Positions 13,701 through 32,261 of a stretch of 64,000 nt of DNA are shown piece after piece. Position numbers and translations under genes: made by a program. The stretch lies in IMG/VR virus record IMGVR_UViG_3300027971_000043, positions 17,731-81,730 of that record. One strand, 5' to 3'. The notes beneath the pieces are model-generated. The model was not told the origin of the DNA, searched no databases, and was given only the letters and a program-made list of their open reading frames with translations. Source of the DNA: a virus. Numbering within the stretch: the first letter of the stretch is position 1; every line of letters begins with the position of its first letter.

Positions 13701-15981
13701 TGGCCTGCAACTTGGCAAGCTGTTCTTCAAGGGCCGGAGTTTCTTCCAAAGGAGACTGCCTGATTTTGGTCTGCAAAGCTGTGATCTGATCGGAAATCTT
13801 TTTAGCCCTGAACTCAGCGGGTCTTTCCTCGGCAACCAACTCTTGTTGCTGGGCAAGACGAGTTTCCAACGCAGTCTGAATTTGGCTTGGTCCCAGATGC
13901 CTCGAAGCGATGGCCTCAATCTCTGGCATCGATCCAGCCGTGTCTAATAAATCGCTGATCTCATCGACCTGATCTTGTGTGATCCCTGGTTTGTTCTCGA
14001 TCTCCTGCAAGATTGCATCCTTCTCATCCTGCATAATCTCCGCAGGATCTTCCTTACCGATCCAATTACCCTCGGCATCCTTGACTCCTAGAACCTGATA
14101 TCGTGATCCGTCCTCACTAAGCTTTCCGTAAACGCGACCCTGACTTTCAAGCCAGTCAATCTTAGCTTGATTGGCGGGGGTGGAAGAAAGGTCAATCGAG
14201 GTAACTCCCTTTTGAAATACGTTGACTAACTCATTGAATGCCCCAATAACTTCCTCATCAGTTTCTGGAACTCCAGCTTCTATGGTCGGAGGAACTCCCA
14301 TTTGTTTTGGCTGTACTTGAGCCTGAGCTTCTGCCACTTTGCTTGAAAGCAAAGATTCAATCGCGCCTTGCTTAGCATTGTTAATCGCTTCATCGGCTAC
14401 CGCCGTAGTTTCGGGAGCAGTTGTTGGGTCAAGAGAAGCCCGAACATTAACAGCGTCAAAAAGAGCTTGGGCTTGAGGACTGTTCAGAGATTCTCGAAGC
14501 TCAACAATTTGTTGCATTTTCTGATCTTCTGGAATCTTGGGGTCGTTCTTAATTCCAGTGACAGTTTGACGGAGAGTATCCGCAAACTTGTCATTCGCCA
14601 TCTGATTAAGTCTTGCTCTACGACCAACAAACCCTTCGGCCAATACCATGCCAAGACCGATACCGCCGGAAGCGGCTAAACTTTGCGGAATCTGAGCAAT
14701 AGGATCTTGTCCACGGGCAATCGCGTCAATCACATCGGATGAAGTTTCTCCGAGAGTTGTTCCAATGACCTTAGCCGTTCCCTGAACAACCGGGGCAAAC
14801 GCAGGAAGTTTGGTCTCAAGAGCTTTAGCAACCATGTGATTGGTCAAGGCGCGATCGGCCACGTCTTCCAATCTATTGCCGGCTTCCTCGGAAAGGGCTA
14901 ATACGCCGGCCTCACTCACAATCGAAGCTAACCGTTGTCCCACGTTCAAATTACGCGGGTCTTGGTCGAGGGATTGGGAGGCTCCGACAACTGCATAAGT
15001 TGCGCCCTTGGACAGAGTCGTGGGAACTTTAATTGTCTGCCCCGCAATATCTGCGGCTTTGCCCAACAAGCCTGTTGCCCCAGCGCCAACTGCCATAAAT
15101 TGACCCAAAGAACCGGTGGCCAATCCAGCCAAAGTAGATGGCATGTAATTCTTTTGAATTACATCGTTGATCCCATTGGTCAAAGCGGCTCGACGGGCTA
15201 CTTGGTCAGGATCATTTTCGTCAACAATAATGTCTCCGATGGAAACAAAAGGAACGAAAGCATCACCGGATTGAACTGCAAAATTACGGAGTCCCGCGGT
15301 ACCAAGTTTCTTTGTCTTGTCACTCTGAAGGTCTTTGTAGTATTCCTGTGCTCGGGCCAGGTTCATTCCAACTTTCGGAGTATTCCACGCGCCAAGCCCG
15401 AACTCCATCGCGGGAGCTTGATCCTTAGGGGCGATAGATTTCCCAGCAGTTAATTCATCGGAATAGAGAGCACCAAGCTCAAGGGCTTTCGCAGCTTGGG
15501 TAGAGTCCTTGATTGTTCCAATGTAATTGCGGGATGCCAAACTTTCCTGCATGGCTTTGGCATCTTCATTCGTAATCCCGAGTCCGCTCTGCAAATAAGA
15601 TCCAATAACTTTACCCACACCTCCGACAGCAATTTTGGTAAGCCCTAACCAGTCATTGTTTTTTTCGGCATCAAGGGTGGCTTGGGAAGTAGATTTTATG
15701 TAATCATTAACATTCTTCTGAGCATCCTGCCACGACTGTGTATTAAAAGGAAGTTTACCTTCCTTAAAACGGGTGGCTGTTCCGAGTAAAAGATCGTTGG
15801 CTTTCGGGTTATCCCGAAGCTCCATAAGTTGGCTGGCTTGAGCCAAAGCCGAAGAAGGCTGGCTTAGTATAGAATCAAGTTCGTCCTGTTGCTGGGTCGG
15901 GGGTTGTCCAAGAATATCTCCGACAATGCTGTCAAGGCTATTAGGCAAACCAGCATCCAAAGGGGAAAGGGGATCTGCCAT
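4729..15981 (-). CDS. Giant 3750-residue virion protein with SF2 helicase core
   Basis: One uninterrupted frame of 11.25 kb. Residues about 1370-1810 hold a helicase core: Walker A GPGTGKT (1390-1396), DEQH box (1494-1497), a motif III-like MASGTPFETP, a C-terminal RecA-like lobe with ATKEMGGTGIEL (about 1745) and motif VI QLIYRVWRVDS (1785-1795). This resembles SNF2 and strawberry-notch helicases. EETIHVE (1942-1948) recalls metallopeptidase-like segments in phage polyvalent proteins but is not a clean HExxH. Long Ala/Gln/Glu coiled-coil stretches surround it, and the C-terminal quarter has hydrophobic segments (about 3030 and 3390). Size, domain mix and place among internal virion genes fit the large polyvalent proteins ejected with DNA. 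No RNA polymerase motifs were seen. Confidence 0.8.
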   Translation of the reverse strand: MADPLSPLDAGLPNSLDSIVGDILGQPPTQQQDELDSILSQPSSALAQASQLMELRDNPKANDLLLGTATRFKEGKLPFNTQSWQDAQKNVNDYIKSTSQATLDAEKNNDWLGLTKIAVGGVGKVIGSYLQSGLGITNEDAKAMQESLASRNYIGTIKDSTQAAKALELGALYSDELTAGKSIAPKDQAPAMEFGLGAWNTPKVGMNLARAQEYYKDLQSDKTKKLGTAGLRNFAVQSGDAFVPFVSIGDIIVDENDPDQVARRAALTNGINDVIQKNYMPSTLAGLATGSLGQFMAVGAGATGLLGKAADIAGQTIKVPTTLSKGATYAVVGASQSLDQDPRNLNVGQRLASIVSEAGVLALSEEAGNRLEDVADRALTNHMVAKALETKLPAFAPVVQGTAKVIGTTLGETSSDVIDAIARGQDPIAQIPQSLAASGGIGLGMVLAEGFVGRRARLNQMANDKFADTLRQTVTGIKNDPKIPEDQKMQQIVELRESLNSPQAQALFDAVNVRASLDPTTAPETTAVADEAINNAKQGAIESLLSSKVAEAQAQVQPKQMGVPPTIEAGVPETDEEVIGAFNELVNVFQKGVTSIDLSSTPANQAKIDWLESQGRVYGKLSEDGSRYQVLGVKDAEGNWIGKEDPAEIMQDEKDAILQEIENKPGITQDQVDEISDLLDTAGSMPEIEAIASRHLGPSQIQTALETRLAQQQELVAEERPAEFRAKKISDQITALQTKIRQSPLEETPALEEQLAKLQAMQGQGELERGARGEQSVASLIGQFERETNAGIKSGAISPELEARPDVVLAINNPEQASYQKFQKLAPDPRENDVNALGDVFNLKNPSTVELLQSLGAIDENGRNIMNPAETLMAYIKRKNTYLQSKSLAGYQKYNIADEVSNGTINSFLYELRQGKGNLSLSTIFNSRLRDFIRQAVPRMRAGVGIGAAVSMETPGLRTQAVDAETLAEEQGLNPAVAGAINETLDQIDATETDFQMEGQVEVPSAAQRQEALAILAENFKQPFRNSLATDAEKLAFDAVVGDVKNVASEAAKIGTTIDNINALQPAVRTKFVQGLENNYRNSQRAGTLPVRAVEEPAGVVREGNLTANQIKPYVDRFRQLQADNFFDDAELVAAKTLLGEVQSSRSGDLLRSFDNFIESVAASKLTPDSITELTEAIDTNLRQSTEDGTISQKQADAYVATLNKLAEPYLASEAMPEGEAKNKIAAAFRSNLLRVSDQILRDSGLTINEEGTYEQPEQLPTPRPEAKTPADRREEARARLAELEAERATTTKRVLEETVPAERKAVERTVERPPAATGRPGVERPRGTPIPKSFVEPRNQLGKSFNEKILAPAGQQVLSNLSKEQAQDVAAAVTTIENSKHKAFYLANGPGTGKTRVLLGTGAYYLNKGYKVVYITAPDAVTPNWDDGEIGGSIQKDATILGVPLAVRGGKGESGRGLPIEFVPGRMLVTTYNSGYLEQLLPLIDDKTVVLLDEQHSGRNLSKAIQSGKTRSWAVLMDDIANKAGRTLMASGTPFETPDQLLSLGRLGIFDNESPDALISRLGFQKYALKGGKKFYWQLAEGVTETEMQDRLEAYLDGMAKNGIMRSRSLKLDGVDIEFQDVPLDNQIKQQLEDIKAMYGGTQNVDISALRQMAAAQKRALEEYKVDAAAKRAVDAIKRGKKPVLYVGFVSDENSKGETVNPTSASLEAAIAKLDPTLKIARMYTGSEQTKEQAMAAFNEGEADVLIATKEMGGTGIELDDKFGDESREMIILSPPISAIQAVQLIYRVWRVDSASRPNIVFLESQAEIDQNTIGRMRAKLRLLDATVGAGFEGLRAEEAVAPVRETNEATAEQQKFVDTELTSVLGTNYKDNTVTFKDAKGQPRIYNVLVSPMAEHSVAAQAGADNESDTIIINPEKLAVSKSRVSPKDFKSYLTKVMLEETIHVETYRYFRELGLDPVEELTAIGDGMSQATRLAIARLYNSQLGSDITDPVIQGKIKALANDSYQVSMEGIRQLSQLNLTGGITEQVTSVDPKDIARATQRLKDLVGQEPKSVLARLGVWFDSMATVVKRGLGLAPQATDRLVLRQGIEDAISNLRKTSKYFVDASAPGPVAAPEPGRSPTSPRPANKFDSYDLRIYRMIENHLEGRTDGVFGVTAADDLFKTVDVNDWLDGLDVAARRGMITNQERNLFRAATKSVMDGGRASLPGIANKALEIAEGMEESGESLPAVAFIATTEPVNLVEPSEYSRYNVKIGFYPSYPTTAKTSAGAVANTVAKMFEDRNEIIFDGRNYTYKNRGALIAAIGRAGYDNYARRLTPAPEIVTEKPIVTSVSLDGETVSIPVPPPEITRVIPVPAPEIRESQAVKNIALNVLDKIPEGADKDRLLNEWYYTSVSQEQQIEDARNYIAENGFDKSLQQFLAGNINASLPVQTGVAFELMNTLREKAKTDKFAESQLIDVALIAAKKYGTEAGRAVQMWSGLDSLIFDNPERAKLFVYRQIDKTLKGKLQGYAEENDEIAMALKDANRRAAEKFTTAKKTIKGNNLQAVQDQLGKLVDLNKKGGTLSQIQAVISDYLESEEVSKGLTEWLGADIAAAPEPGMGGDDIRLDPDQSRALGRVILGIIERSENPRETAASADEIKRLVMLAPVVRDAKNQENVRRKLELYFDSALTYALEFFQAKALREARAREAGTRVGQAAEVIPPPSTRGEAIQRVAQAKAKAAQEAPVIVPNNLPPELALAEASADALQKQAARLQKQPKVKDALEEFAMRTRRLIAQRTKEMGGLQPVFEPLPKPTEAEVLKDRIAQYPEVKEFINNVRESLRNNYNEQELIGLEPFIEEAFGRPFAVSSLKQTVRALESIGGPKTNLRSLIRASRGDIMDFENKMGALLTENTNLDEAQKKEVLDFLREGMTELIASERKDALKRIKENFEKKKERKTRKIRSALDKLIESANLGVLSDDDVFVQMHSQLGLPEMTQEQRKELNKKIEALSVLPKGMIRQKAINEMYQYIKFVAPVVWSDLLINYQTAGLLSSVGTVGINAFGSLLNAELNAFLLTAAGGVKYAIGAALNKEQEKALGKAYLSALPSLNQAIFSPKGKAYAAALNTMLSGNYSDISDVLNQEYGGINTFEAIVNQAEAYRKGQSSIRPELPIKAFGKEYTLPLDPKAISKKYGLLGPYIWFGRAMQAGDALIKVSTKKMAEVLEATNVAIDQGLTTQEEIEAEVARLLNMSPEARSRAEAKAAAEAKEFSLTPTEQTLRVEEIIAQNRPDEDAVKEITKRAQTLAAQTSFTNNFEGYIGLLAGTVNDLGEKAKALKVLLKFLRTGSALANEGLKFLPIISQIRFIRGSAGKLKDSKYFVPPPTPGTIEHDLLLGKMFTGLMGIFLIGLRFLPAMSGEDDPENNIHLNGPADPTQREAFLAAGGKLKSIQLGTFKSGKPRFVSFEFFPQGIQAVLTLIASYVESVRYSKRSKVEAALEGTLAAGMVTTLAMLDVGFLSGLRSIMALTSPGPQRTDPKMIIDKTVKLAGNITASFIPGYATARDIEQAYNGLTGSPSARPYQENLLSVFMSSIPFASKIGRPDLDFLGGNIRTQMSNTVPFLRRLTTVGVDGMAYNNGERSQQAIHDKLISLFAANRYALDWDPGPLKNYAMMDLIKDAAANGVTLTPDDFFQISRELTNDEKYEWMQRAGPVIENFLAPFIPQLEKMSRPQFITFMQQVNKTIKNPILQNVLLEKNQEGILFPERK

Positions 15982-19120: not shown

Positions 19121-20338
19121 TTACGCCATGTTGGGAATTTCACCCATTGCAAACGCTCTCATTTGGATCTGAGGTCGGCCAATGTTAGCTCCGTCCACCT
19201 CTCTTAGTTCTTCTTTCAAAAGATCCACAGCTTTTTCCTCGTAAACTTGGGCTTCAACAAGATTGTTATTTTCTTCTTTTTCAATGGCAATTGCCATCAT
19301 CTTGAGGGCGCCGAGGTTGGTGACGATAAGATCGTCATCGTCGCCTGTGACCGGAATAAACTTACGTTTGGCAAGTACCGTAACGGCAGACCCTTCCTCA
19401 TTTTCAAAGCCCGGAATTGCATAACGCCTATACTGGGGCAAAGTCTCGTCGGGCGCAAGTATGGCGATGCAGTATTCGGAACCCGTGGTCGGATCAACTG
19501 CATAGACACGGACCCAACCTTTCGTAGGGCTTTTGTTTATTGCATCGATGCTTCTGAAGGCATTAACTGTGGTGCGGGGGAGTTCTGTTAAAGTTAGTAC
19601 AGCTGGATTGTTGTAACCAACTTGCCACGGGTATGCGGAATTCAATGATGAGGAAGTCTCTACACTACTGTCGGGAGCTATAAATTGCCAGACAGACCCG
19701 TTATTTACTATAATCCACCCGTTAAGATTTCTGTAAGCGGGTTTTGAGTTTGCTGTGGTATAAAAAGCATAAACACCGTTAGCCACAACGGCTGCCCCAG
19801 CAAACCCAGAAACCAATACACTAGAATTCCCCGAACCGGCGCTCAAGTTCAAACGCTCGCCGTCGATGTAGGCTCCGTTTTCCTGCGTCTGGATTCGGTC
19901 GTTGTAAGTATCTGATCCGCGAAATAGAATGGTTGAGGTGGCGTCTTCAATAAGATCGGTGTAAACACGAATAAAACTTTGAGCCGCCAAAGACCTAAAG
20001 CAAGGAACATAGCCACGGTCGACTAACTGCCTCCAATCTCCGGGTTGAGCCATTCCCGGGCCATTGGCCATAAATTCATACCACTGGTTATAAACCTGTG
20101 CAGGAGCTCCCCCAAAGTTATATCCTAGGATTGATTCAAACTCGCGGGGAAGAGTGATGCACCCGCCGTAAACACAAACGGAATACCGTCCGTAAGTTCC
20201 CGCATAAAGTCCCTTATTGAGCAACCTTTCCTGAGCTTCGTTTACGCGAGCCAAAAGCTGGGGATTATCTGCGCACATTCCATTTTGGGTAACGCGGGCT
20301 AACTGTTGTTTTACCGATCCGTATGTTCTGCGGATCAT
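19121..20338 (-). CDS. Probable tail tube or adaptor protein
   Basis: A 405-residue protein opening MIRRTYGSVKQQLARV, with NPQLLARVNEAQERLL helices and YGGCITLPREFESILGY. The helix-rich N-terminus with a beta-rich body that reports Leu-Pro-Arg-Glu sites resembles the adaptor or tubular tail proteins of short-tailed phages, but that is by general character only. It overlaps the upstream gene by 4 bases (ATGA). Its order after tail-tip genes agrees with a tail role. Confidence 0.55.
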   Translation of the reverse strand: MIRRTYGSVKQQLARVTQNGMCADNPQLLARVNEAQERLLNKGLYAGTYGRYSVCVYGGCITLPREFESILGYNFGGAPAQVYNQWYEFMANGPGMAQPGDWRQLVDRGYVPCFRSLAAQSFIRVYTDLIEDATSTILFRGSDTYNDRIQTQENGAYIDGERLNLSAGSGNSSVLVSGFAGAAVVANGVYAFYTTANSKPAYRNLNGWIIVNNGSVWQFIAPDSSVETSSSLNSAYPWQVGYNNPAVLTLTELPRTTVNAFRSIDAINKSPTKGWVRVYAVDPTTGSEYCIAILAPDETLPQYRRYAIPGFENEEGSAVTVLAKRKFIPVTGDDDDLIVTNLGALKMMAIAIEKEENNNLVEAQVYEEKAVDLLKEELREVDGANIGRPQIQMRAFAMGEIPNMA

Positions 20339-20757
20339 GAGTAGTTCCCTACGTAGACTTTATATTTGTATCCGTTGGGGGCGGTTGGAGTGGGCGGAGT
20401 TAAAAGTTCTTGCCCCGCCACGGTATAAGTGCTAGATCCCTCTCCCCACGGGGCAATAACATTTGATGTTGAATCTACGAGCACCATGTCGCCAAAATTA
20501 AATTGAGTAAACTCAAGCCACGATCCATTGACAAAAAGATTGACAGTCGAGGGCAAACCAGTTTGAGCATTGATCTTGAACCATAATTTATTTTGGTCAG
20601 AACCCGTTGGAGTGGAGGAACTAACAACGGCATAACGAAGTTCATCGGGATATTGAACTGAAAGATAAGAAGATAAAGTTGTTAGGAAGTCTCCAAAATT
20701 TCCGGGATAAGGAGTTCCGGCTGGCACACTACCGGAAGTAATCGTTATTTCGGCCAT
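20335..20757 (-). CDS. Small tail protein, parent form of the propeller protein
   Basis: A 140-residue protein. Its N-terminal half (SSSTPTGSDQNKLWFKINAQ) and C-terminal half (WLEFTQFNFGDMVLV, then APWGEG, then PPTPTAPNGYKYKVYVG) align with the two ends of the 610-residue protein at 22785-24617, which carries extra domains between them. A beta-rich fibre or tail-tip role is inferred. A promoter-like site overlaps the end of the upstream gene, and an AAAGGA ribosome site precedes the start. Confidence 0.65.
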   Translation of the reverse strand: MAEITITSGSVPAGTPYPGNFGDFLTTLSSYLSVQYPDELRYAVVSSSTPTGSDQNKLWFKINAQTGLPSTVNLFVNGSWLEFTQFNFGDMVLVDSTSNVIAPWGEGSSTYTVAGQELLTPPTPTAPNGYKYKVYVGNYS

Positions 20758-20766
20758 AGATCCTTT

Positions 20767-20794
20767 AGATTAAAGGGTTGCATTTTTTTGTCAA
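20767..20794 (-). promoter_or_regulatory. Promoter-like site TTGACA-N16-TAATCT
   Basis: On the minus strand TTGACA (20794-20789), a 16-base spacer, TAATCT (20772-20767). The start at 20757 follows 9 bases later behind AAAGGA. It would allow separate transcription of the small tail protein and the genes after it. Confidence 0.45.
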
Positions 20795-22788
20795 GGGAGA
20801 GGTCCGTTTCGACTTCCTGACGTAACCGCACTTGTGGCAAAATTATAAGCAGAAGAAGAAGTTATCGAAACATCTGTTCTCAAATATGTTAACGACGCTA
20901 CACTTCCTCCATTTGAATAATAATATAATGCTCCGTTACTAGAGGGTTGACCGCTTGCATTTGCCCCCACCCCAAAACCAAAGAAAAAAATGGTGACGGG
21001 TAAAAATGGGGCGACATTCGGATTTACCAATGTTTCTCCAGCCTGTGTAAAAGTGCTGAGTCTGTAATTATTTCCGGAAGCATATGCTGTAAAACCATAA
21101 GAAAGCGGGGAGGCTACAAATGGAGCAAAAGGAGCTAAACCAGAAACAACACCATAATTCCCCCCGGGTTGAAGATTTACTCCAGATTTTGTAAACGTAT
21201 ACAATAAACTTCCGCTCATGTTGTAAAACTCAAATATAATGTCAGTTGGAGAAAAAAACTGACTGTATCTAGCAACTAACATGTATTGAGAAATTCCATT
21301 GTGATTATAAATACTAAAAGAAGTAAGATTGGTGAGGCCAGTTAAAAATGTTGAGGCAACTCCAGCATCAGTAATCTTCTTTATGGCAGAGTTGTCCATA
21401 AAATAAATAGAATTGTTTGTATCAAAAAGTAATGGACTTTGACCATTTTGCGCGTCATATGCTTGTTGATAATAAGCACCCCAAGAGGATCCATTCCATT
21501 TAGCAATCCTAAAAGTCGTATTATTATCAACATAAGAAGCATAAATTTTATTGTTAAAAGTTTCGATAACTCCACGGAGTTGAATTGTCCCGGGGTATGG
21601 GCCAAAAGACGAACCGAGCGTTCTTAAATATCTCGTTCCCCCTAAAAGATTCGAAACATATCTAACTTTGTTTTGGCCTTCATAATAATCGACAAAAAGA
21701 GTTCCGTATGTAGAAGATGGCGATACTTGGCCGCCCCCATTAAAAAGACCCGGATTAATTGTTAAAGTTATTGTTTTTGTGATGGTAGGACCTAACACAC
21801 TTACGGCGGATAGACCTATCGACATGATTCCGGTTTCGGGCCACCCCGAGTTAAGTGTACCGCTTATGAGCCCAGTAGAAGTATTTATCGATACTCCCGA
21901 AGGAAGATTTGTCGCGCCGTATGAAGAAGCTGCATTTGAGGTTCCACCACCCAAAGTAATCTGGTAAGAAAAAGCCCCACCATCGTCTCCAGTGGTATTT
22001 CCACTCGTTATAATTGGGGGTACATTAACAGTAACATTTAGAGTAGCAACTCCAGTAAAGTATTGATTAGAGGCCGATAATATAATATTAGTTGACTGTG
22101 CGACTGAGCCTGGTGGAGTCGCGGGAGTTCCAGAAATTATTCCTGTGCTTGTGTTAATACTTAACCCGGAAGGAATTGGGGAAGCTCCAAATAATGTTGG
22201 AGACTTGGAGGCTGTAATTGTGTAAGGAGTAATCGCAGAGCCAGCGGTAAATGCAAGCGGGGTCAAAGAACTCGTAATAACAGGACGTTGTTGAAGGGTG
22301 AAAATTAAATTTTGATTTCCAGTTCCAGCAGCATTTGTAGCACTTACGGTTGCTGTAACTGTGATAACGGCATCATTTGAAACGGATGTGGGTGTTCCAG
22401 TTATTAAACCGGTACCCGTATTAACAGATAGGCCCGTGGGTAAACTAGTTGCCCCGTAAGAGAGAATAGCGGTAGGAGAAGAAGCGGTGATTTGATACGA
22501 GAAGGCTGTAGCCATTTCATGCGTCACTGCGTCAACACTAGTAATAAAGGGCGTGGGAGGGGTATTGACAGTAAGGTCGAGAATAGCGGCGCTTGTTCCT
22601 CCAACCCCTCTGGCTAAAATGGTGATGGCAAATCGTCCGGCTTGTTGAAGTTCGCCTGAAATAACACCTTCTTGGTTTATAGACAATCCTTGAGGAAGAT
22701 TCTCAGCAGCAAAATAAATTGTATTCGACGCGGTTATAGTACGTGAATACACGCCACCAGCCGTTACTGTTTGATACACAATTGTCAT
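20791..22788 (-). CDS. Tail or fibre protein with four putative-Ig repeats
   Basis: A 665-residue protein. The first 370 residues contain four repeats of the putative-Ig type, each with a core like SLPTGLSVNTGTGLITGTP or NLPSGVSINTSTGLISGTL. The C-terminal 290 residues are Tyr/Ser/Asn-rich with strand-turn repeats that look like a beta-propeller. Putative-Ig modules are common in phage tail and surface-adhesion proteins and often bind carbohydrate. It overlaps the upstream gene by 4 bases. Receptor binding is inferred. Confidence 0.7.
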   Translation of the reverse strand: MTIVYQTVTAGGVYSRTITASNTIYFAAENLPQGLSINQEGVISGELQQAGRFAITILARGVGGTSAAILDLTVNTPPTPFITSVDAVTHEMATAFSYQITASSPTAILSYGATSLPTGLSVNTGTGLITGTPTSVSNDAVITVTATVSATNAAGTGNQNLIFTLQQRPVITSSLTPLAFTAGSAITPYTITASKSPTLFGASPIPSGLSINTSTGIISGTPATPPGSVAQSTNIILSASNQYFTGVATLNVTVNVPPIITSGNTTGDDGGAFSYQITLGGGTSNAASSYGATNLPSGVSINTSTGLISGTLNSGWPETGIMSIGLSAVSVLGPTITKTITLTINPGLFNGGGQVSPSSTYGTLFVDYYEGQNKVRYVSNLLGGTRYLRTLGSSFGPYPGTIQLRGVIETFNNKIYASYVDNNTTFRIAKWNGSSWGAYYQQAYDAQNGQSPLLFDTNNSIYFMDNSAIKKITDAGVASTFLTGLTNLTSFSIYNHNGISQYMLVARYSQFFSPTDIIFEFYNMSGSLLYTFTKSGVNLQPGGNYGVVSGLAPFAPFVASPLSYGFTAYASGNNYRLSTFTQAGETLVNPNVAPFLPVTIFFFGFGVGANASGQPSSNGALYYYSNGGSVASLTYLRTDVSITSSSAYNFATSAVTSGSRNGPLP

Positions 22789-24617
22789 GGTGTTATTACT
22801 GGAAGATCGGGTTGAAGCATTCGAGCGCCGATATAGTACTTGTATTTAAATCCTACTGGAGGAGTTGGTAAGACTGGGACTGTAAAGTTTGCCTCTCCCC
22901 AGGGAGATAAATCATAAACTTTCCCGGACTCACCCCAGGGGAATGTAACATCTTCGTCGTCAGAAGTTATAATAATATCCCCCCGGTTCAGGGTAGAAAA
23001 CTCAAACCATGCCCCTGAAGAATATCGTCTAAGCGCTGGTGTTGCAAAATTTGTTGTCGGAACTGCGTCAAAAATTTGAATGTTCATTCCTTTGGTAGAG
23101 GTTCCGGATGAATTAGTTGCGCCGAGAAGAACAGGAAATATTCCGGAAACCGTTGGCGTTCCAGAAATAAGACCCGTGGACGAATTTAAACTAAGCCCAG
23201 TCGGAAGACCAGTAGCGGAATAAGAAATTACGGGAGCTGGAGAAGCCACAATTTGATACGAAAAAGCAGCATTTATAAAACCAGAAGAATAGTCGGAACT
23301 AGTAATTTCGGGGGACTCTTGAAGCAGTAATCCCTGGCGCGTTTGATGGTTACTTATTGAAACATCAAAAGCATTATCTATTGCTCCACTAGAAGTTAGT
23401 CTATACGCCTTTGCCGGGAACGTAACACCCGACACAAAACAAGCACCAGAATTTGAAACAGCTAAACTGTAGAGGGTGGCTCCATTGGCTGCAAAAGAAG
23501 TGGAAAAGGTACTATCGACAGAACCATTTGAATTTAAGCGGACTACTTTTATTCCGGGATTATTAAATTGACCGCATATGTATATTTTTCCATTTGATGC
23601 TTCAACAATATTTTCTATCTGAGAGGTTGTATTAACCGGTGAAAAAGAAGTATCTAGAGCTCCAGTAGGCAAAAGTCTTCGTAGCAACCCGGATACTTGT
23701 TGTGATGCAAATAAAATTTTCTGATCGCCCTGAATCCATAGACACGGGTTCCCAGAGAGAAAATCATTCGAATAAGGAGTGAAGGAAGTGTCTAAAGAGG
23801 CTGTTGACGTCAGACGACAAAATCCTATTCTATTAGCGGATAGGTTTACGCCTTTATAACGATCAAACAAACCTCCGATCAAAATGGATCCGTTTGATTG
23901 AATCCCCACGGTTGAAATCACTGCTTGGTTTCCGGCTATATTACTAACTCCGGTTGTAGAAACAAAAGTTGAATCTAGTGTTCCATCAGTATTAATTCTT
24001 ACTATGCACACGGCGGCGGTTGCATTGTAGGTGGCAAAATCTCCAAAAGCTATAATCTTCCCGTCCGGTTGAACTTGAAGCCCGCGAACAAAAGGGTAGG
24101 TTCCCCCAAAAACTCCAGCAGCAAAAGTTCCGTCTTGGCTCCCGTCGGAATTAATTCTATAAATAGTGTTTGCTCCGGAACTAGTATTCATAACTGCAAT
24201 ATAATATTTTCCGGAAGGTCCTAAGGCGAGACCACGTATAGAAGGATTAGTAATACTGATCCACGAAACTGAAAAAGTGTTGTCGAGTGCTCCGGTAGTT
24301 GGATTGTAAGCTCGGAGCATAGTGGCTGGAGAATAAGAGTCCGACACGACCAGAATTCTGGTGGCGGAAGTTCCTGACGGAGGCGGTGGAACTGGAAGTG
24401 GAGGTTCAGGAGCATCACCAGGCTGAGGCGTATGAATCCAAATTTTATCGTTGTCCTCTACCGAAGGAATAGTACCACCTGTGACATAAATATCCTCAAC
24501 GTCTGTTCTCTCTACATGAGCATTCAACGCTACGTGATCTACAGTATCCTGAACGGTACGAGGATAATCATCAAATCCGGGAGGATTAAAATAGACAGAA
24601 TACTCGCTCATCCGCAT
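22785..24617 (-). CDS. Tail protein with delta-60 propeller and putative-Ig domain
   Basis: A 610-residue protein. Residues about 1-75 and 525-610 match the small 140-residue tail protein. Inserted between them are six or so delta-60 repeats with the hallmark D-G-K-I and N-x-D-G-T-L-D-S-T-F patterns (QPDGKIIAFGDF, NTDGTLDSTF, GSVDSTFSTSF), a predicted beta-propeller, followed by one putative-Ig repeat (GLPTGLSLNSSTGLISGTP). Probably a host-contact protein. Delta-60 repeats are otherwise known from large secreted bacterial proteins, so the insert may have come from a host. Confidence 0.75.
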   Translation of the reverse strand: MRMSEYSVYFNPPGFDDYPRTVQDTVDHVALNAHVERTDVEDIYVTGGTIPSVEDNDKIWIHTPQPGDAPEPPLPVPPPPSGTSATRILVVSDSYSPATMLRAYNPTTGALDNTFSVSWISITNPSIRGLALGPSGKYYIAVMNTSSGANTIYRINSDGSQDGTFAAGVFGGTYPFVRGLQVQPDGKIIAFGDFATYNATAAVCIVRINTDGTLDSTFVSTTGVSNIAGNQAVISTVGIQSNGSILIGGLFDRYKGVNLSANRIGFCRLTSTASLDTSFTPYSNDFLSGNPCLWIQGDQKILFASQQVSGLLRRLLPTGALDTSFSPVNTTSQIENIVEASNGKIYICGQFNNPGIKVVRLNSNGSVDSTFSTSFAANGATLYSLAVSNSGACFVSGVTFPAKAYRLTSSGAIDNAFDVSISNHQTRQGLLLQESPEITSSDYSSGFINAAFSYQIVASPAPVISYSATGLPTGLSLNSSTGLISGTPTVSGIFPVLLGATNSSGTSTKGMNIQIFDAVPTTNFATPALRRYSSGAWFEFSTLNRGDIIITSDDEDVTFPWGESGKVYDLSPWGEANFTVPVLPTPPVGFKYKYYIGARMLQPDLPVITP

Positions 24618-26569
24618 TCTCCCAAATCGCTGATGTCCTTGCGGGAAGCATGAAGTCTGAACAGCGCAAGCTTAGCCTGGCCCTCCCAATAAAGCTTGGC
24701 CTGGAACATATAACCAAAATTAGACAACCGATTTGTAAGGTCAAGACAAACAGATTCTGGCTTCACAGTTCGGACTGTCCTGAATCCATAAGGAAGGTCG
24801 GGTGGAGATTGTGTCGTTAGGACTGGAGTTTCCTGTTCGTTGGGTATCGTCTTCTCTTGAATTGAGTAAAATAGATTAACAAAGTCTGGACTATATTTCA
24901 AATTCCAAGTGACGTCTCCATATACATCTGTAAACCCAACGTCTGCCCGCATAAGAGTCTTGATGTCAAAGGGAGTTCCAAATGAAAAGCGTTTAGTTTC
25001 GACTGAACATTCAATAGGGGTTGTAACGACGCCAGCATTTCGGGAAGGTTTTATTTCGTCGGCATAATCTGCGAGGGTAACTTCATAGAGGCAATTTTTA
25101 CCATCTGAATCGCATGTAATTGCAAAACATCGTCTGGAATTGTCGAACGTTCCTTCCACTAGTTTGCAAATTTGAAAACCATTCCACTCTCCATCAAATA
25201 CAGGAACTGGAGCGTTAAGCACTGACCCTGCGTTAAAATCTTTGCTTACAATTTTAGAGAAAACAATGTTAAACCTTCCGGTGTAATTACCATTTGCATC
25301 AGTGATTCTTTGAATTTTTGGAGCTCCACCAAGAAGATATCGACTGTCAAACAAAGCCCCAGGAGCATAAGTTAGCCATCTTTCGGTATCAAAAGACATT
25401 ACCCTAGCCGCTTCCAAACTGTCGACAAAACTAACAACTCCGGCCGCATTTATAGTTTGGGCCAGAGATCTTATTCCTTCTAAAGATCTAAAATACACAT
25501 CTTTATCTGTAACAATAATTGATTCTTGGTTTTCTGATCCTCGACCAACAAATATCTTTCTTTGCATTCCTGGCGTAGTTTGCCAAGTTGTGCGATCGTA
25601 ATTAGTGGCTCGAATAGCGTAAATTGCGTTTTGTGTGAAAACAATAAGATCTCCTTGGCCAACAGAATTGTCTTGTCCAGGTAAGAACACAAGTCCAGTT
25701 ATATTCTCGTTAAAATAAAAACTTCCGCCACCAGTTAAATAAATTGTTTCAGTAAACTTAATTTCAGCATTCAAGCTTGAACCAACAAGATCTCCGGCAA
25801 AAAGGTTATTGTTATTAGCAACCCATAACCGACCATTGCCGTAAGCTACAAGTGAACCTACGGGTATTGAAATATTGTCGCGAACAATCCCTGGAGAATA
25901 AAAAAGAAGCGTGGTAACAATAGTTCTTGTTGCGTCTTTACTTAAAGTAATAGTAGAATTTTCAATATCAAAAGATGTTACAAAAGTTTCATCTTGTACG
26001 GCTCCGGAATTGGAGGCAACCAACATTCCAACTTCAATCCCAACCACATTGGGTACGGCAATGAGATTATTGTTTGCCCCCAAAACAGCATCGGTAATCG
26101 TCACTGCTGGACTGGCTAATTGTGTTTTCCCTTGGGACCTAAAAGAAGTAGCTCCGTCGTAAACAATAGCCGGAGAGGTTCCGTCCTGCGAAACCAGAAA
26201 AGCGTTTGCTTGCACCAAAGAAGATTTTTGAGATACAAAAGGACTTGCCTCACCAGGAGGAGAAATATCTCGAGCCTGTGTTGAGGCTTCTAACGGAGCG
26301 AGATCGTATAACTTGCCATTAATCAAAGCTACCAAATCCTGTGTATTCCGAATTCGATTTGTGAAGTAGCAAGCTCCCTGAACAACGCCAGGAGGAAGTA
26401 ACTTAATAAATTTAAAACCAGGGCGGGTCTTGGGAAAACCATCTCGGACGACAATATTTTCACCCCATGAGTATTGATTCTCTGAGATTAGGGCTGGGTC
26501 AACGGCAGAATTAGCTCCCCCCAGAAAGGACCCCATCCCCTCTGTTAACCTATTCTGGTCGGAAATCAT
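24608..26569 (-). CDS. Large tail protein, probable nozzle
   Basis: A 653-residue protein with a short N-terminal segment (NQYSWGENIVVRDGFPKTRPG) and a long run of beta-strand blade-like units, for example DLIVFTQNAIYAIRATNYDR and IIVTDKDVYFRSLEGIRSL. The layout recalls the beta-propeller nozzle or stabilisation proteins of short-tailed phages, but no signature motif proves this. It overlaps the propeller protein by 10 bases and its upstream neighbour by one. Confidence 0.6.
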   Translation of the reverse strand: MISDQNRLTEGMGSFLGGANSAVDPALISENQYSWGENIVVRDGFPKTRPGFKFIKLLPPGVVQGACYFTNRIRNTQDLVALINGKLYDLAPLEASTQARDISPPGEASPFVSQKSSLVQANAFLVSQDGTSPAIVYDGATSFRSQGKTQLASPAVTITDAVLGANNNLIAVPNVVGIEVGMLVASNSGAVQDETFVTSFDIENSTITLSKDATRTIVTTLLFYSPGIVRDNISIPVGSLVAYGNGRLWVANNNNLFAGDLVGSSLNAEIKFTETIYLTGGGSFYFNENITGLVFLPGQDNSVGQGDLIVFTQNAIYAIRATNYDRTTWQTTPGMQRKIFVGRGSENQESIIVTDKDVYFRSLEGIRSLAQTINAAGVVSFVDSLEAARVMSFDTERWLTYAPGALFDSRYLLGGAPKIQRITDANGNYTGRFNIVFSKIVSKDFNAGSVLNAPVPVFDGEWNGFQICKLVEGTFDNSRRCFAITCDSDGKNCLYEVTLADYADEIKPSRNAGVVTTPIECSVETKRFSFGTPFDIKTLMRADVGFTDVYGDVTWNLKYSPDFVNLFYSIQEKTIPNEQETPVLTTQSPPDLPYGFRTVRTVKPESVCLDLTNRLSNFGYMFQAKLYWEGQAKLALFRLHASRKDISDLGECG

Positions 26570-27474
26570 TAGACCGCCAGAATATAGGTTGAGACTATAA
26601 CGTTTAAATTAATGGATACTGAACTGTAGGCATTAGTGCTGTAGTTGTGAAAAAATACATTTACAGTATTTGTGGCAGAAACAACAGCTGAAATAGACAC
26701 GTCAGTTTCAAAGGTAGTTGCTGGATTTGTTGCGTATCCAATAGTCACAACATCACCCAAGGCTGCCCCAGTACAAGTTAGAGAAACACTTTGGACGGAA
26801 CCAATGGATCCGGCTAGGGTAACAGTAGCTGTAGGCGTAAAAAATAAAAGTTTGGTAAGCTCGGCTGCTGGAACTCCACTTCCAACACGGAGTCTAGCAC
26901 CTTTTACGTATCCAGAAGAAACTAATGTATTGCCCGTAACTTCCATGCTGCCGCCAACAGTTAAAGTTGATCCTCCGGCAGCAGGACTTACATTGATACC
27001 GACCTTATTCAAAACGGCATCGGCTTGGATTAGGGGAAGACTATTTGATCCGCTCACCCTAAAAGCTGGATTAACGGAGGTAAAAGACTGATTGATATCA
27101 ATCGAAGTTAGATTTGGGTCAATGTATCCTGCGACGGATGAGGGTGAGATTCTACGATTTGAAGAAACAGTTGAACCGGAAGCAACTAAATCTATATTGA
27201 CTAATTCTACCGTAATTGAAGTTGAAGATACAATAGCAATAACTTGATAGTACCCAGCCTGAGCAATATAAATATTTTGCCCTAAAGCGATCCAGGCAGA
27301 ATCACCAACAGAAATAGTTACATTTGATCCTACATTTGGTTGAGTAAAAGAAGCGGTAAGGGTTGTGAAAGCATTAATACCATTCGTACCGTTAGTGCCG
27401 TTGAACCCACCAAGACCCTGAGGTCCTTGAGGTCCGGCTTCTCCAATTACAAGTGTATTACAATCGCAGCTCAT
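26569..27474 (-). CDS. Fibre protein with short collagen-like stretch
   Basis: A 301-residue protein. Residues 12-33 are Gly-x-y repeats (GPQGPQGLGGFNGTNGTNG), typical of trimeric phage fibres. The C-terminal 90 residues (about VQSVSLTCTGAALGDVVTIG to VSATNTVNVFFHN) are the same module found in the proteins at 27485 and 31848. A strong AAGGAGG ribosome site precedes the ATG. A trimeric head or tail fibre is inferred. Confidence 0.7.
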   Translation of the reverse strand: MSCDCNTLVIGEAGPQGPQGLGGFNGTNGTNGINAFTTLTASFTQPNVGSNVTISVGDSAWIALGQNIYIAQAGYYQVIAIVSSTSITVELVNIDLVASGSTVSSNRRISPSSVAGYIDPNLTSIDINQSFTSVNPAFRVSGSNSLPLIQADAVLNKVGINVSPAAGGSTLTVGGSMEVTGNTLVSSGYVKGARLRVGSGVPAAELTKLLFFTPTATVTLAGSIGSVQSVSLTCTGAALGDVVTIGYATNPATTFETDVSISAVVSATNTVNVFFHNYSTNAYSSVSINLNVIVSTYILAV

Positions 27475-27484
27475 TTAGTCCTCC

Positions 27485-28402
27485 TTATGCGGTTTTGATA
27501 ATAGCTACTTTAAAGTTGTAAGCAGCCCCCGGGGCAATTATTCCGGATGTCGGATTGTGAGCCCTAACAGTTACCGTATTAGTAGCAGATACGAAAGCTT
27601 CAAAAATAAGCTTACCATTGGTAGTTCCGCGACCAGCCGTATCCAAGCAGGTGACAAAAACAACATCGGTGGTGGCTGCACCAGTAAGTGTAATTGTTAA
27701 ATCTACAAACCCTCCTGCGGTGATAGAACCGAAAGAAAGTGATGTAGAAGCACTAATCAAAGCAATCGGCAACGTTCCAGTGATATTGGGGAGAGTAACT
27801 GTTCGGGCGGCGGTGGCTGACCCATTGAGGGTGGTTCTAGTTGTAGAAACTCCAAATTCAATCGACCCAGTCCCACGGGTATTGATTGAACCACCTCCAG
27901 AGGAAGTATTGATCGACCCTCCGGGTTCAGTTCCGCTTCCATTAGTATAAATACTTCCTCCTGGCGCCGTAACTTCTTCTCCGTGCGTATCGATAACGCC
28001 GCCACCACTATCTTCCCCATAAGTATAGATATACCCACCAGCTCCTCCCGTGCCGGCAGAGGTATTGATGTTGCCGCCGCCATAACCAGAACCAGTACCC
28101 CTTGTATCTATGTACCCGCCCGCACCATCGCTTCCTGTTGTGTTGATGTACCCACCACTAGAACCGCCATCAGTTGCCGATGTGTCTATGTACCCACCTG
28201 CCTGACCTCCCTCGTCTCCGCTTGTTTTAATATACCCACCAGTTCCAGCTAGATTTCTTGTATCGATTGAACCGCCGAGTGGCAGAAGAAGAGGGTTTGG
28301 GATAAGTGCTGCGACAAGATTAGCGGGAGGAGGAGTAGTATTCGCCCCGGCTGTTCCGCAATCGCAATCTCGGGCGTAGTTGTCGGGATTAGGAAAACTC
28401 AT
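27485..28402 (-). CDS. Repeat-rich fibre protein with beta-helix-like stem
   Basis: A 305-residue protein. Residues about 43-180 hold eleven consecutive units of the form GG-x-I-x-T (GGYIDT, GGYINT, GGSIYT) spaced 9-14 residues, as expected for turns of a beta-helix. The C-terminal 95 residues are the shared module ending in VSATNTVTVRAHNPTSG. The start has no Shine-Dalgarno and lies 7 bases after a promoter-like -10, suggesting a leaderless mRNA. Confidence 0.7.
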   Translation of the reverse strand: MSFPNPDNYARDCDCGTAGANTTPPPANLVAALIPNPLLLPLGGSIDTRNLAGTGGYIKTSGDEGGQAGGYIDTSATDGGSSGGYINTTGSDGAGGYIDTRGTGSGYGGGNINTSAGTGGAGGYIYTYGEDSGGGVIDTHGEEVTAPGGSIYTNGSGTEPGGSINTSSGGGSINTRGTGSIEFGVSTTRTTLNGSATAARTVTLPNITGTLPIALISASTSLSFGSITAGGFVDLTITLTGAATTDVVFVTCLDTAGRGTTNGKLIFEAFVSATNTVTVRAHNPTSGIIAPGAAYNFKVAIIKTA

Positions 28403-28444: not shown

Positions 28445-29044
28445 CTATATGTTTACGAGTAGACATTCAGCGTATGCGTCTCCGCGGAATGTTGTAAAAG
28501 TAAACCCGCTTGTATCAGCTGAATAAGCAACCGAAACGCCCAGCGTTAATGACTCTCCAGTAAGTAGAGTTCTTCGACCCCCAGCCGGAGTGGAGGCAAA
28601 TCCAAAATGATCTGTGATGTTATAGGCAGAAAGAGGATTCTCGACTGTTCCTGAGGTAAAAGCGAAAGAATTAGTGACAGTAGTAGTTGTTCCGTTTCTG
28701 TAGCCCCGCAGAGTTGGGGCCTTCCAGTTATACCCAAGATAAGTTCCGCTAAGGGCCAATCCCGTTAATCTTATATACAAGTTTTTAACTATCACGTTCT
28801 TTCCGGCGGGAGTACTAAACGCTCCGCCGTCTGTCCCCGTAAAAAGGACAGAATTTACTCCTCCCGCTCCGATTACTGGGCTAAGTAAATTAAAATTTGT
28901 TACCCTCAAAGTAAAGGAACTAGTGGTTGGGTCGAATGGCGGGGTTATTGGCGAAGAAGAAGAAGCAGTAACAATTGTCGGCTCAACAACAGGACTTAAA
29001 ACATTTCTGTTGCGACCCGTTGTGTCCATATCAGACAGACTCAT
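28445..29044 (-). CDS. Beta-rich virion protein, 199 residues
   Basis: A soluble Ser/Thr/Gly-rich protein: SSPITPPFDPTTSSFTLRV near the N-terminus, then alternating strands (NVIVKNLYIRLTGLALSGTY region). No signal peptide. It overlaps the upstream nuclease-like gene by 4 bases (ATGA) and precedes the fibre genes, so a head or tail decoration role is inferred. No family recognised. Confidence 0.55.
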   Translation of the reverse strand: MSLSDMDTTGRNRNVLSPVVEPTIVTASSSSPITPPFDPTTSSFTLRVTNFNLLSPVIGAGGVNSVLFTGTDGGAFSTPAGKNVIVKNLYIRLTGLALSGTYLGYNWKAPTLRGYRNGTTTTVTNSFAFTSGTVENPLSAYNITDHFGFASTPAGGRRTLLTGESLTLGVSVAYSADTSGFTFTTFRGDAYAECLLVNI

Positions 29045-29442
29045 TTATTCGAAACTCCTTTCAATGTATTCCAATTGTCGCGCCATTTACAGTTAAGTTC
29101 AAGATAAATCGACTTTGTACGTGGAAGTTTTTCCCTTGGTATAATAAACAACGCATCCAGAGTTGTGTGGTAAAATATAAAAATATCGCAGTCTACTTTA
29201 GAGTATAACCTTTTTTTCATGTGTCCAAAACCTGGACCTCTTATGGCGAAAAACTTTAATTTCCTGCGTCGACAATCTTCATTTCCAATAGTAGTTTTAA
29301 CCTGTACCCGCGCCATATTCCCCTTCCAATCCGTAACTAAATCATACCCGTCATCGTAAATGGGCATACTCACAAGAAAACCTTGTTCCATCAATTTAGT
29401 ACAAACCTTCTGTACTCCTATTGCTCCTAGTTTAATACTCAT
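29041..29442 (-). CDS. PD-(D/E)XK endonuclease-like protein
   Basis: A 133-residue protein. The start is placed at the ATG that overlaps the endolysin stop as ATGA (MSIKLGAIGVQKV) rather than 27 bases upstream. Motifs fit the PD-(D/E)XK family that includes I-Ssp6803I: GAIGVQKVCTKLMEQGF helix, YDDGYDLVTDW with the catalytic aspartate, and RVQVKTT with the Q-x-K. DCDIFIFYHT and LFIIPREKL complete the fold. It may be a free-standing homing endonuclease or a resolvase; its place inside the lysis cassette suggests the former. Confidence 0.65.
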   Translation of the reverse strand: MSIKLGAIGVQKVCTKLMEQGFLVSMPIYDDGYDLVTDWKGNMARVQVKTTIGNEDCRRRKLKFFAIRGPGFGHMKKRLYSKVDCDIFIFYHTTLDALFIIPREKLPRTKSIYLELNCKWRDNWNTLKGVSNK

Positions 29443-29981
29443 AACCAGCTCCTTGCGAGCATTGTACACAATGGCCGACGCTTGCGATAGACCCCATCCC
29501 CATCACGGCTTCCATTATCGTTTGTATTACCCTCTATTGTAACTGCCATTTTACCCTCAATTCGCTCTATAAGCCCCGTGTGAGCCACCCTACGCAAGCT
29601 TTGGAAGTATATGCCAAAAGCGTCGGCGGGTCCCGGGGTCATGCCTTTACCGCGATCCCAAGTGGGTTTAACGACAAAGGATGGACTCCAAGCGGAACGG
29701 GGGAATGGATTGGCCTCCTTGCCGAAAGCTTTGTCTCCTACATAGACAACCCAAGCCGCGCACCAAGGAGCACGACTACCTTCCAGTCCAACTGTGGCTA
29801 GGATCTCGTCCACCACGGCCCCGGAGTTTCCGGGTCCTTCTCGAAGTCCGATCGTATTTCTGGCAACTTCCATAAGGCTTTCCACTCTTGCTCCTCGCGA
29901 TAATACGACTCCCTGAGCAACTCCCTCTCCGGTACCCAGCAAAGATAGAGATGCCAAAGCCAACGCATGAACTATCCGCAT
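29439..29981 (-). CDS. Endolysin, exported CHAP-like peptidase
   Basis: A 180-residue protein. An N-terminal signal-like segment (residues 1-23, ALALASLSLLGTG) precedes an enzyme domain with the CHAP arrangement: cysteine in APWCAAWVVYV (about residue 73), histidine in RVAHTGLIE (about 132), and EGNTNDNGS. It should cut peptidoglycan peptide bonds. The signal implies Sec export or a signal-arrest-release mode, so it may not need a large-hole holin. Overlaps the holin gene by 10 bases. Confidence 0.8.
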   Translation of the reverse strand: MRIVHALALASLSLLGTGEGVAQGVVLSRGARVESLMEVARNTIGLREGPGNSGAVVDEILATVGLEGSRAPWCAAWVVYVGDKAFGKEANPFPRSAWSPSFVVKPTWDRGKGMTPGPADAFGIYFQSLRRVAHTGLIERIEGKMAVTIEGNTNDNGSRDGDGVYRKRRPLCTMLARSWL

Positions 29982-31847: not shown

Positions 31848-32261
31848 TTAAACTCCTTTAGCGACCAAAATTTTAAAAGTGTAGGAACCGGGGTTAACAG
31901 ACGCAAGAGTAGGGTTTATGGCTCTGACTGTAACTGTATTTGCGGCCGAAACAAAACTGCTAAAAATAAGAGAGCGAGAGCCGTCTCCTGAACCGCGAAT
32001 AGAAACGCAATTAACCGAAGTCCAGTCATCTAGTGCAGCTCCCGTAACAGTAACATCGGAATCTAAGAATCCACCAGACACCCCAATAGACCCGAAATTA
32101 ATGCTGGCAGTGGCGGTTAAGAATGCGTTAGCAGCGCCAATATCTGCTGGTGTTAAATTGTTTAAAATTTGAGTGCTAAAAATAGAAGTAACTTGAGCGG
32201 CTAAAACACGGTCAACAGTTGCTACAGCAGAAGCAAAAAAAGGGTTGCGAATTGAATCCAT
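31848..32261 (-). CDS. Virion protein with shared C-terminal module
   Basis: A 137-residue protein. Its N-terminal DRVLAAQVTSIFS matches DNVLAAQIRSVLA in the protein at 33043. Its C-terminal 90 residues (NFGSIGVSGGFLDSDVTVTG to VSAANTVTVRAINPT) are the module found in the fibres at 26569 and 27485. It is preceded by a GGAG ribosome site and a strong promoter-like element. Confidence 0.65.
   Translation of the reverse strand: MDSIRNPFFASAVATVDRVLAAQVTSIFSTQILNNLTPADIGAANAFLTATASINFGSIGVSGGFLDSDVTVTGAALDDWTSVNCVSIRGSGDGSRSLIFSSFVSAANTVTVRAINPTLASVNPGSYTFKILVAKGV

Follow-up and report, generated by a model that had tools for sequence, protein, structure and literature searches.

A β-propeller module inserted into one of two paralogous copies of a small, putative phage tail protein

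A stretch of 64,000 nucleotides from the virus record IMGVR_UViG_3300027971_000043 (positions 17,731 to 81,730 of its 81,730 bases; called the window below, and its phage W) carries genes for a small protein of 140 residues, P0001, and a large one of 610 residues, P0002, which are paralogous except that a β-propeller and a putative immunoglobulin (Ig) domain interrupt the large one at a single point. The domain formed by the small protein is here called the shell, and its two parts in the large protein are the N-shell and the C-shell. An earlier note had proposed both reading frames, and they exist where it placed them, on the minus strand, which it left unstated. How can a small phage protein come to hold such a module? 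The reading we favour, with somewhat better than even confidence, is that the shell gene was duplicated in tandem, that the upstream copy received the module in a loop, that the propeller faces outward and binds the host, and that the module is exchanged among phages.

The split shell and its insert

The order of motifs which P0001 and the two ends of P0002 were said to share is indeed present, with differences of one residue in register. Their C-terminal parts align over 69 residues with 36% identity (BLASTP expectation value, E, of 3e-13 for this single pair) and reach E 1.5e-15 in a profile-profile comparison, where the N-terminal parts reach E 1.8e-4 with an hhalign probability of 48%. Scans with P0001, with a neighbouring protein of 653 residues and with the C-shell brought two close relatives, A (IMGVR 3300032219_002612) and B (3300032282_005958), whose large proteins could be compared in the same way. 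When N-terminal parts were shuffled, the local and global scores of the W pair were reached by 4 and 2 of 2000 shuffles, those of the A pair by none of 2000 in either case, and those of the B pair by 14 and 4 of 2000; two of nine pairs were locally non-significant, namely the small proteins of W (331/2000) and A (332/2000) against the large protein of B. The N-terminal similarity is weaker than the C-terminal one, yet it is beyond chance. A profile of 25 uninserted shells, from which the large proteins were excluded, matches P0002 in two pieces: profile positions 13-64 align with residues 15-66 (E 1.7e-4), and positions 70-140 with residues 527-598 (E about 7e-18). The large protein of A is split in the same manner (E 9.7e-5 and 8.3e-15), and that of B gives a weak N-terminal piece (E 3.1) and a C-terminal piece of E 2.8e-15. 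Since the profile of the relatives finds both pieces in order, the question of similarity can be regarded as closed. In a full-length MAFFT alignment with nothing joined, the insert opens a single gap, whose place is the same for each of the three large proteins. The single insertion point of the earlier note thus stands, and its size estimate of some 430 residues has to be raised to about 461 (residues about 64-524).

The content of the insert was also read correctly from the sequence, as both delta-60 repeats and a putative Ig domain score above curated cut-offs. PF17164 (DUF5122) matches P0002 in five stretches with E 4.3e-36 and 123.3 bits against a cut-off of 27, TIGR02608 with 107.7 bits against 76.5, and PF05345 (He_PIG) with E 9.6e-11 and 42.4 bits against 24. 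The predicted model of P0002 aligns to solved propellers in VIA-align with Z of 22-24 and root-mean-square deviations mostly of 2.5-5 over about 265-315 residues; these rows lie mostly within residues about 83-437, where the predicted local distance difference test (pLDDT) is mostly 50-83. The first row of a Foldseek search of the Protein Data Bank (PDB) is the propeller of an archaeal S-layer protein, 1l0q (E 1.6e-13), and further rows include bacterial glycan-binding lectins and NHL domains. Because the propeller spans residues about 83-437, its ends should lie close together, as insertion into a loop needs. A self-repeat test is clear for the inserts of W (lag 50, 0 of 40 shuffles) and B (0/40); for that of A the observed score was reached by 20 of 40 shuffles. 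Inside the W propeller there are one family of three-copy repeats and one inverted pair, and no direct repeats were found at the junctions of the insert.

Where in the shell does the insert sit? In the AlphaFold2 model of P0001 (pLDDT 85.3, predicted template modelling score, pTM, 0.47, 25 sequences in the alignment) the insertion point is the loop of residues 63-68 between predicted strands 58-62 and 69-76, which, judged from strand order, would pair as a hairpin. Strands and helix follow one another in the same order in the AlphaFold2 models of both proteins, so the expectation of a common shell fold is supported but not independently, because the two alignments share sequences and the agreement is one of element order without superposition. 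P0001 has no Pfam match, and its best hit among PDB sequences has E 0.51. Searched with all 25 shell members, PHROGs returned only matches of single members, at E 0.03 or worse.

Relatives with and without the insert, and exchange of the module

A scan anchored on the conserved 405-residue protein next to P0001 found 13 related loci, A and B among them, and a rescan with a larger alignment gave the same 13. A further scan gave 16, the 13 known relatives and three distant loci, of which only one, L041, has a shell-like protein. The related records are 19 to 82 kb long and may be fragments. A search of whole records with the shell profile finds exactly two copies in all 14 (W and the 13 relatives), the large protein being counted once per record though it is able to score as two pieces. 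In each of the 11 relatives outside the insert-bearing clade the two copies are small, adjacent and uninserted: the upstream ones have 145-154 residues as called and the downstream ones 141-149 (for the upstream copy of L021 the caller starts at a TTG, giving 150 residues, and the ATG two codons on was used, giving 148). The insert is present in three phages, W, A and B, and always in the upstream copy; of 15 records, two (W and B) have DUF5122 and three (W, A and B) have He_PIG. The comparison of related phages thus bears on the order of events as the earlier note had supposed, with duplication before insertion, since two copies occur in 14 of 14 records and uninserted adjacent pairs in 11 of 11. 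For the same reason the duplication of the shell is old.

That the large proteins descend from the upstream copy is also seen in their sequences. They reach 94.3, 82.9 and 65.8 bits with a profile built from the 11 upstream copies, against 67.3, 54.9 and 46.2 bits with one from the 14 downstream copies, an advantage of 20-28 bits on all three. All three large proteins have a PWG-to-YKxYxG spacing of 32, as do 7 of 11 upstream copies (33, 34, 37 and 37 in the others); in 11 of 14 downstream copies it is 29 (30, 37 and 37 in the others). Mean identities are less decisive (30.2% to the upstream and 28.1% to the downstream copies), and the shell tree places the large shells on a long branch, as a single group with good support. 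Trees of neighbouring genes unite W, A and B with support of 96/78 for the 653-residue protein and 88/92 for the 405-residue protein. Upstream copies differ in length exactly at the insertion loop, which suggests that this loop is a tolerant site. In sequence terms the insert was probably gained rather than lost, because all 14 downstream copies and the distant L041 protein have a short loop there.

The module itself has moved. W and A are 79% identical in the 653-residue protein, 90% in P0003, the protein encoded between the two shell genes, and 91% in both the small shell and the 405-residue protein. Within the large protein the N-shells are 91% identical, the Ig domains 40% and the C-shells 59%, and between the propellers no similarity is detected (best E 0.61). 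The DNA identity between the two phages falls from 88% to 41% at 24431, just past the WIH codons at the junction of shell and insert, and returns to 90% after 22868 (98% in the bin starting at 22789). The exchanged stretch therefore takes in the C-shell as well, which the earlier note had missed, just as it had missed that the modules of W and A differ. The insert of A matches the NHL domain of SOQ1 in sequence (E 7.9e-7) and the Pfam NHL family at E 0.0044 and 17.4 bits, below the cut-off of 20; its propeller is called only NHL-like because this cut-off is not reached while matches to solved NHL domains are present, and the assignment rests on these matches since its self-repeat test is unclear. 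Delta-60 repeats are common to W and B (37% identity over 165 residues, E 6e-21). C-shell identity hardly differs among the three pairings of W, A and B (55-59%). On the simplest reading, either W or A acquired propeller, Ig domain and C-shell in one piece from a third phage, with the recombination anchored in the N-shell and P0003. The module has thus been exchanged by recombination, one event being seen, between W and A. A variable module on a conserved part, swapped between relatives, is one of the features expected of receptor-binding proteins.

Explanations and known systems

Taken together, the favoured course of events is as follows. In an ancestor of this phage family a small, putative tail protein was duplicated in tandem, and in one lineage, that of W, A and B, the upstream copy took a propeller-plus-Ig module into a loop, probably of a β-hairpin. 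With conserved structural genes on either side of the two copies, the shell may belong to the tail, and its two halves would still form one fold that keeps the protein attached there. Because the ends of a propeller are expected to lie close together, a hairpin loop can presumably carry one without breaking the shell. The propeller might then be displayed outward from the tail and bind the host surface, probably a glycan or a surface protein, and phages can swap the module by recombination with the N-shell and the next gene as anchors, because the shell is conserved and the module is confined to one loop. A role of the propeller module in receptor specificity, as proposed before, is plausible, and its exchange may alter host range. 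Several points weigh against this course. The phage family is without a characterised protein, so that tail attachment and host binding are judged from gene position; P0002 is modelled by AlphaFold2 with moderate quality (mean pLDDT 64.8, pTM 0.50); and the shell fold has no clear match in the PDB, where the best Foldseek row has E 1.9 and none is under 0.001, a second look at these rows giving at best a VIA Z of 3.8 over 38 residues. The missing fold match does not show a new fold. Moreover, two neighbouring genes with fixed N-termini and swapped tips are possible real determinants of specificity, and the neighbour-gene trees leave the root, and hence gain or loss of the insert, undecided.

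The strongest competitor, which we regard as possible but clearly less probable, takes the propeller module as real and assigns it to general adhesion, to cells, particles or matrix, or to decoration of the virion, with specificity set by the neighbouring fibre genes. These genes do combine near-fixed N-termini with exchanged tips, and both are kept in the propeller clade; still, the propeller itself has been exchanged between close relatives, which suggests selection on its binding partner. Might the propeller instead be ancestral to the upstream copy and have been lost in the 11 other phages? The tree of the 653-residue protein, when rooted on the long-branched L041, sets the insert clade (96/78) beside the rest (79/73) and so leaves the polarity undecided. 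Nevertheless, the 14 downstream paralogues and the L041 homologue are short-looped, and the loop of the uninserted upstream copies is intact, of varied short length and free of any propeller remnant in the alignment, which makes loss unlikely. Less probable again is a fusion of independent N-shell and C-shell domains around a propeller-Ig protein. It could appeal to the L041 protein, which has the N half of the shell (profile positions 6-83, E 4.3e-5) without the C half (positions 96-114 are not significant) and which directly follows L041's own homologue of the 653-residue protein. Yet both halves form one continuous protein of 140-154 residues in 25 uninserted proteins, the break falls at one point within the shell, and of the two copies per record one is replaced one-for-one, so that we give fusion very little weight. 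Finally, chance similarity or convergent composition rich in Pro, Gly and Trp might be read into the N-terminal part, which alone is weak in some pairs, as in the shuffles of small W against large B and the hhalign probability; but the C-terminal E-values of the pair and of the profile, and two pieces in order and nearly abutting in profile coordinates, leave it practically no room, and the profile split across P0002 rules it out.

Insertion followed by exchange thus being preferred, what would it mean? Domain exchange among tail proteins is well known, but in our judgement the states before and after an insertion are seldom visible side by side. Here one family offers the empty duplicate in 11 phages, the filled copy in three, two kinds of filling and a break at the junction resolved to the base, and it is unusual that empty copy, filled copy and changed filling occur together and that the module lies within a split domain and not at a protein end. 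A natural loop site for display of a propeller on a putative tail protein is defined in this way, and the order of events, duplication, insertion, exchange, is testable. Looking for shell paralogues of unequal length may also help to find genes for host recognition in phages that are uncultured, and the locus would be a natural example of swappable parts that probably aid host recognition. More tentatively, and with somewhat less than even confidence, the hairpin loop could be seen as an evolutionary socket, one paralogue being fixed structurally and the other taking and exchanging whole propellers, delta-60 or NHL-like; if so, host-binding modules would be displayed by grafting into a loop and not by replacement of a C-terminal tip.

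From where did the module come? The earlier note had called it a host-type surface module, and its kind does occur in bacterial secreted proteins, but an origin in the phage's own host is unsupported, as no close donor was found. In a plasmid collection 13 records match the delta-60 module, the best 10 of the 13 being 26-33% identical; the plasmid-borne homologues listed come from Hymenobacter, Deinococcus, Azotobacter and Methylobacterium, and several are annotated with carbohydrate-binding or sorting domains. Scans for a donor gave 51 pattern matches and no relatives in genome contigs and 19 matches and no relatives in viral contigs, and such scans need near-exact words of eight residues, so that they exclude close donors only. 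As for the shell, bacterial genomes gave 86 pattern matches and no relatives. Among 50,697 phage records P0001 found only two Curtobacterium records at E 0.6, and neither an upstream copy nor the 653-residue protein found a match.

Delta-60 propellers (TIGR02608, PF17164) are already named in phage proteins, for example the 'Delta-60 repeat' protein A0A6J5M436 of an uncultured phage in BFVD, and a hypothetical protein of Stenotrophomonas phage RAS14 matches the propeller part of P0002; unlike these, the propeller here lies inside the loop of an unrelated, putative small tail protein with an uninserted paralogue nearby. In the mosaicism of receptor-binding proteins, fragments of tail proteins are shuffled behind a conserved N-terminal attachment part so that the C-terminal part varies, according to PMC10684548, in whose main text the word 'propeller' is absent; the module of W, in contrast, has a part of one split domain on either side. 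In phAss-1 and in Crassvirales there are virion proteins that combine Ig-like domains with a β-propeller (PMC10607447, PMC10136315). P0003 resembles them in its order of Ig repeats followed by a repeat domain, but each of them is one large protein (a putative capsid protein in one case, a muzzle protein in the other) and not a loop insertion in a paralogue. Tentaclins have a lectin-type head on Ig domains, are proposed to bind receptors and have a bacterial relative with an extra propeller; as described in PMC10743442, the C-type lectin head is N-terminal, the Ig anchor is C-terminal and no shell is split. A literature search found no description of the present arrangement, most subscription papers and preprints being outside its reach.

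Genes of the locus and coordinates

The features are collected in Table 1. The true start of P0002 may be 24611, since relative B starts at the position of Met3. Its N-shell ends with the strand that precedes the insertion loop. The 653-residue protein is matched to phrog_3287 (virion structural protein) through 12 of 14 aligned members (best E 1.5e-7); neither W's own 653-residue protein nor its 405-residue protein has a family match. Judged by position, the former may be the tail nozzle and the latter the head-tail adaptor. No tRNAs were found in the window, and the numbers of promoters (15 at the locus, with 15.2 expected) and terminators (11, with 8.0 expected) are uninformative.

Table 1. 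Features of the P0001-P0002 locus in W (positions in the window).
Feature	Position	Strand	Content or basis
Large putative tail protein P0002, 610 residues	22785..24617	minus	N-shell, Pro-rich linker, propeller, Ig, C-shell
P0002 N-shell, residues 1-63	24429..24617	minus	YP..., P..D.DKIW motif; N-terminal profile piece
Pro-rich linker opening the insert, residues 64-82	24372..24428	minus	sequence; lowest model confidence, pLDDT 28-46
Inserted delta-60/DUF5122 β-propeller, residues about 83-437	23307..24371	minus	PF17164, TIGR02608, VIA-align
Inserted He_PIG putative Ig domain, residues about 438-518 (Pfam match 444-509)	23064..23306	minus	PF05345
P0002 C-shell, residues 519-610	22788..23063	minus	G.W.EF, GD, PWGE, PP.GFKYKYYIG; C-terminal profile piece
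Stretch exchanged between W and relative A	22868..24431	minus	two-changepoint fit and base-by-base view
Small uninserted paralogue P0001, 140 residues, downstream copy	20335..20757	minus	
P0001 residues 63-68, loop matching the insertion point	20554..20571	minus	AlphaFold2 model and alignment
P0003, 665 residues, four He_PIG domains and C-terminal repeat domain	20791..22788	minus	
Conserved virion structural protein, 653 residues, immediately upstream of P0002	24608..26569	minus	
Conserved 405-residue protein immediately downstream of P0001, anchor for finding relatives	19121..20338	minus	

Only phages of the clade with the insert have P0003 between their shell genes. Its C-terminal repeat domain is clear in the self-repeat test (lag 41, 0/40 shuffles; counterpart at L006 8336-10477), and the counterpart in relative B has delta-60 repeats in its C-terminal part instead; this neighbour likewise exchanges its module. 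The 11 uninserted relatives have an extra gene of 102-239 residues upstream of the shell pair, with no match within the loci of W, A or B; its product (L010 8382-9086, with counterparts in L011-L012 and L014-L021) has conserved ends and a variable middle. Very Cys-rich proteins of 497 and 223 residues are encoded between the 653-residue counterpart and the shells at L017 7154-8647 and L021 7684-8355.

Two adjacent putative fibre genes, 27485-28402 and 26569-27474 (both minus), have counterparts in L009-L021. Their N-termini are near-fixed, with a mean identity of 86% and 88% across 25 residues, and their products range in 14 phages from 127 to 652 and from 301 to 968 residues, respectively. 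The C-terminal tip of the former is more than 60% identical in 12 of 91 pairs and less than 30% in 43 of 91, a distribution typical of exchanged tips. From their sequences the two genes look like the main fibres and would be equal or better candidates for receptor binding. Tips encoded by 27485-28402 and its counterparts recur in phages that are otherwise distant; for example, 90 residues of the W tip are 92% identical to those of L014 and L015. Judged by eye, the proteins of 31848-32261 (minus) and 27485-28402 have similar C-termini (FGSI...G...VTGAA...TVTVRA.NP), which suggests a tip domain common to two genes of one phage.

A protein of 142 residues at 29041-29469 (minus) matches phrog_5018, of unknown function (E 1.4e-15), and look-alikes stand just before the fibre genes in many relatives. 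The gene at 4729-15981 (minus) encodes 3750 residues with a helicase-like stretch by eye, and no NCBIfam model is above its cut-off. In L042, a terminase-like reading frame of 963 residues (6080-8971, minus) has by eye an intein-like stretch, and within it an alternative-frame reading frame (7402-8268) has the look of an endonuclease.

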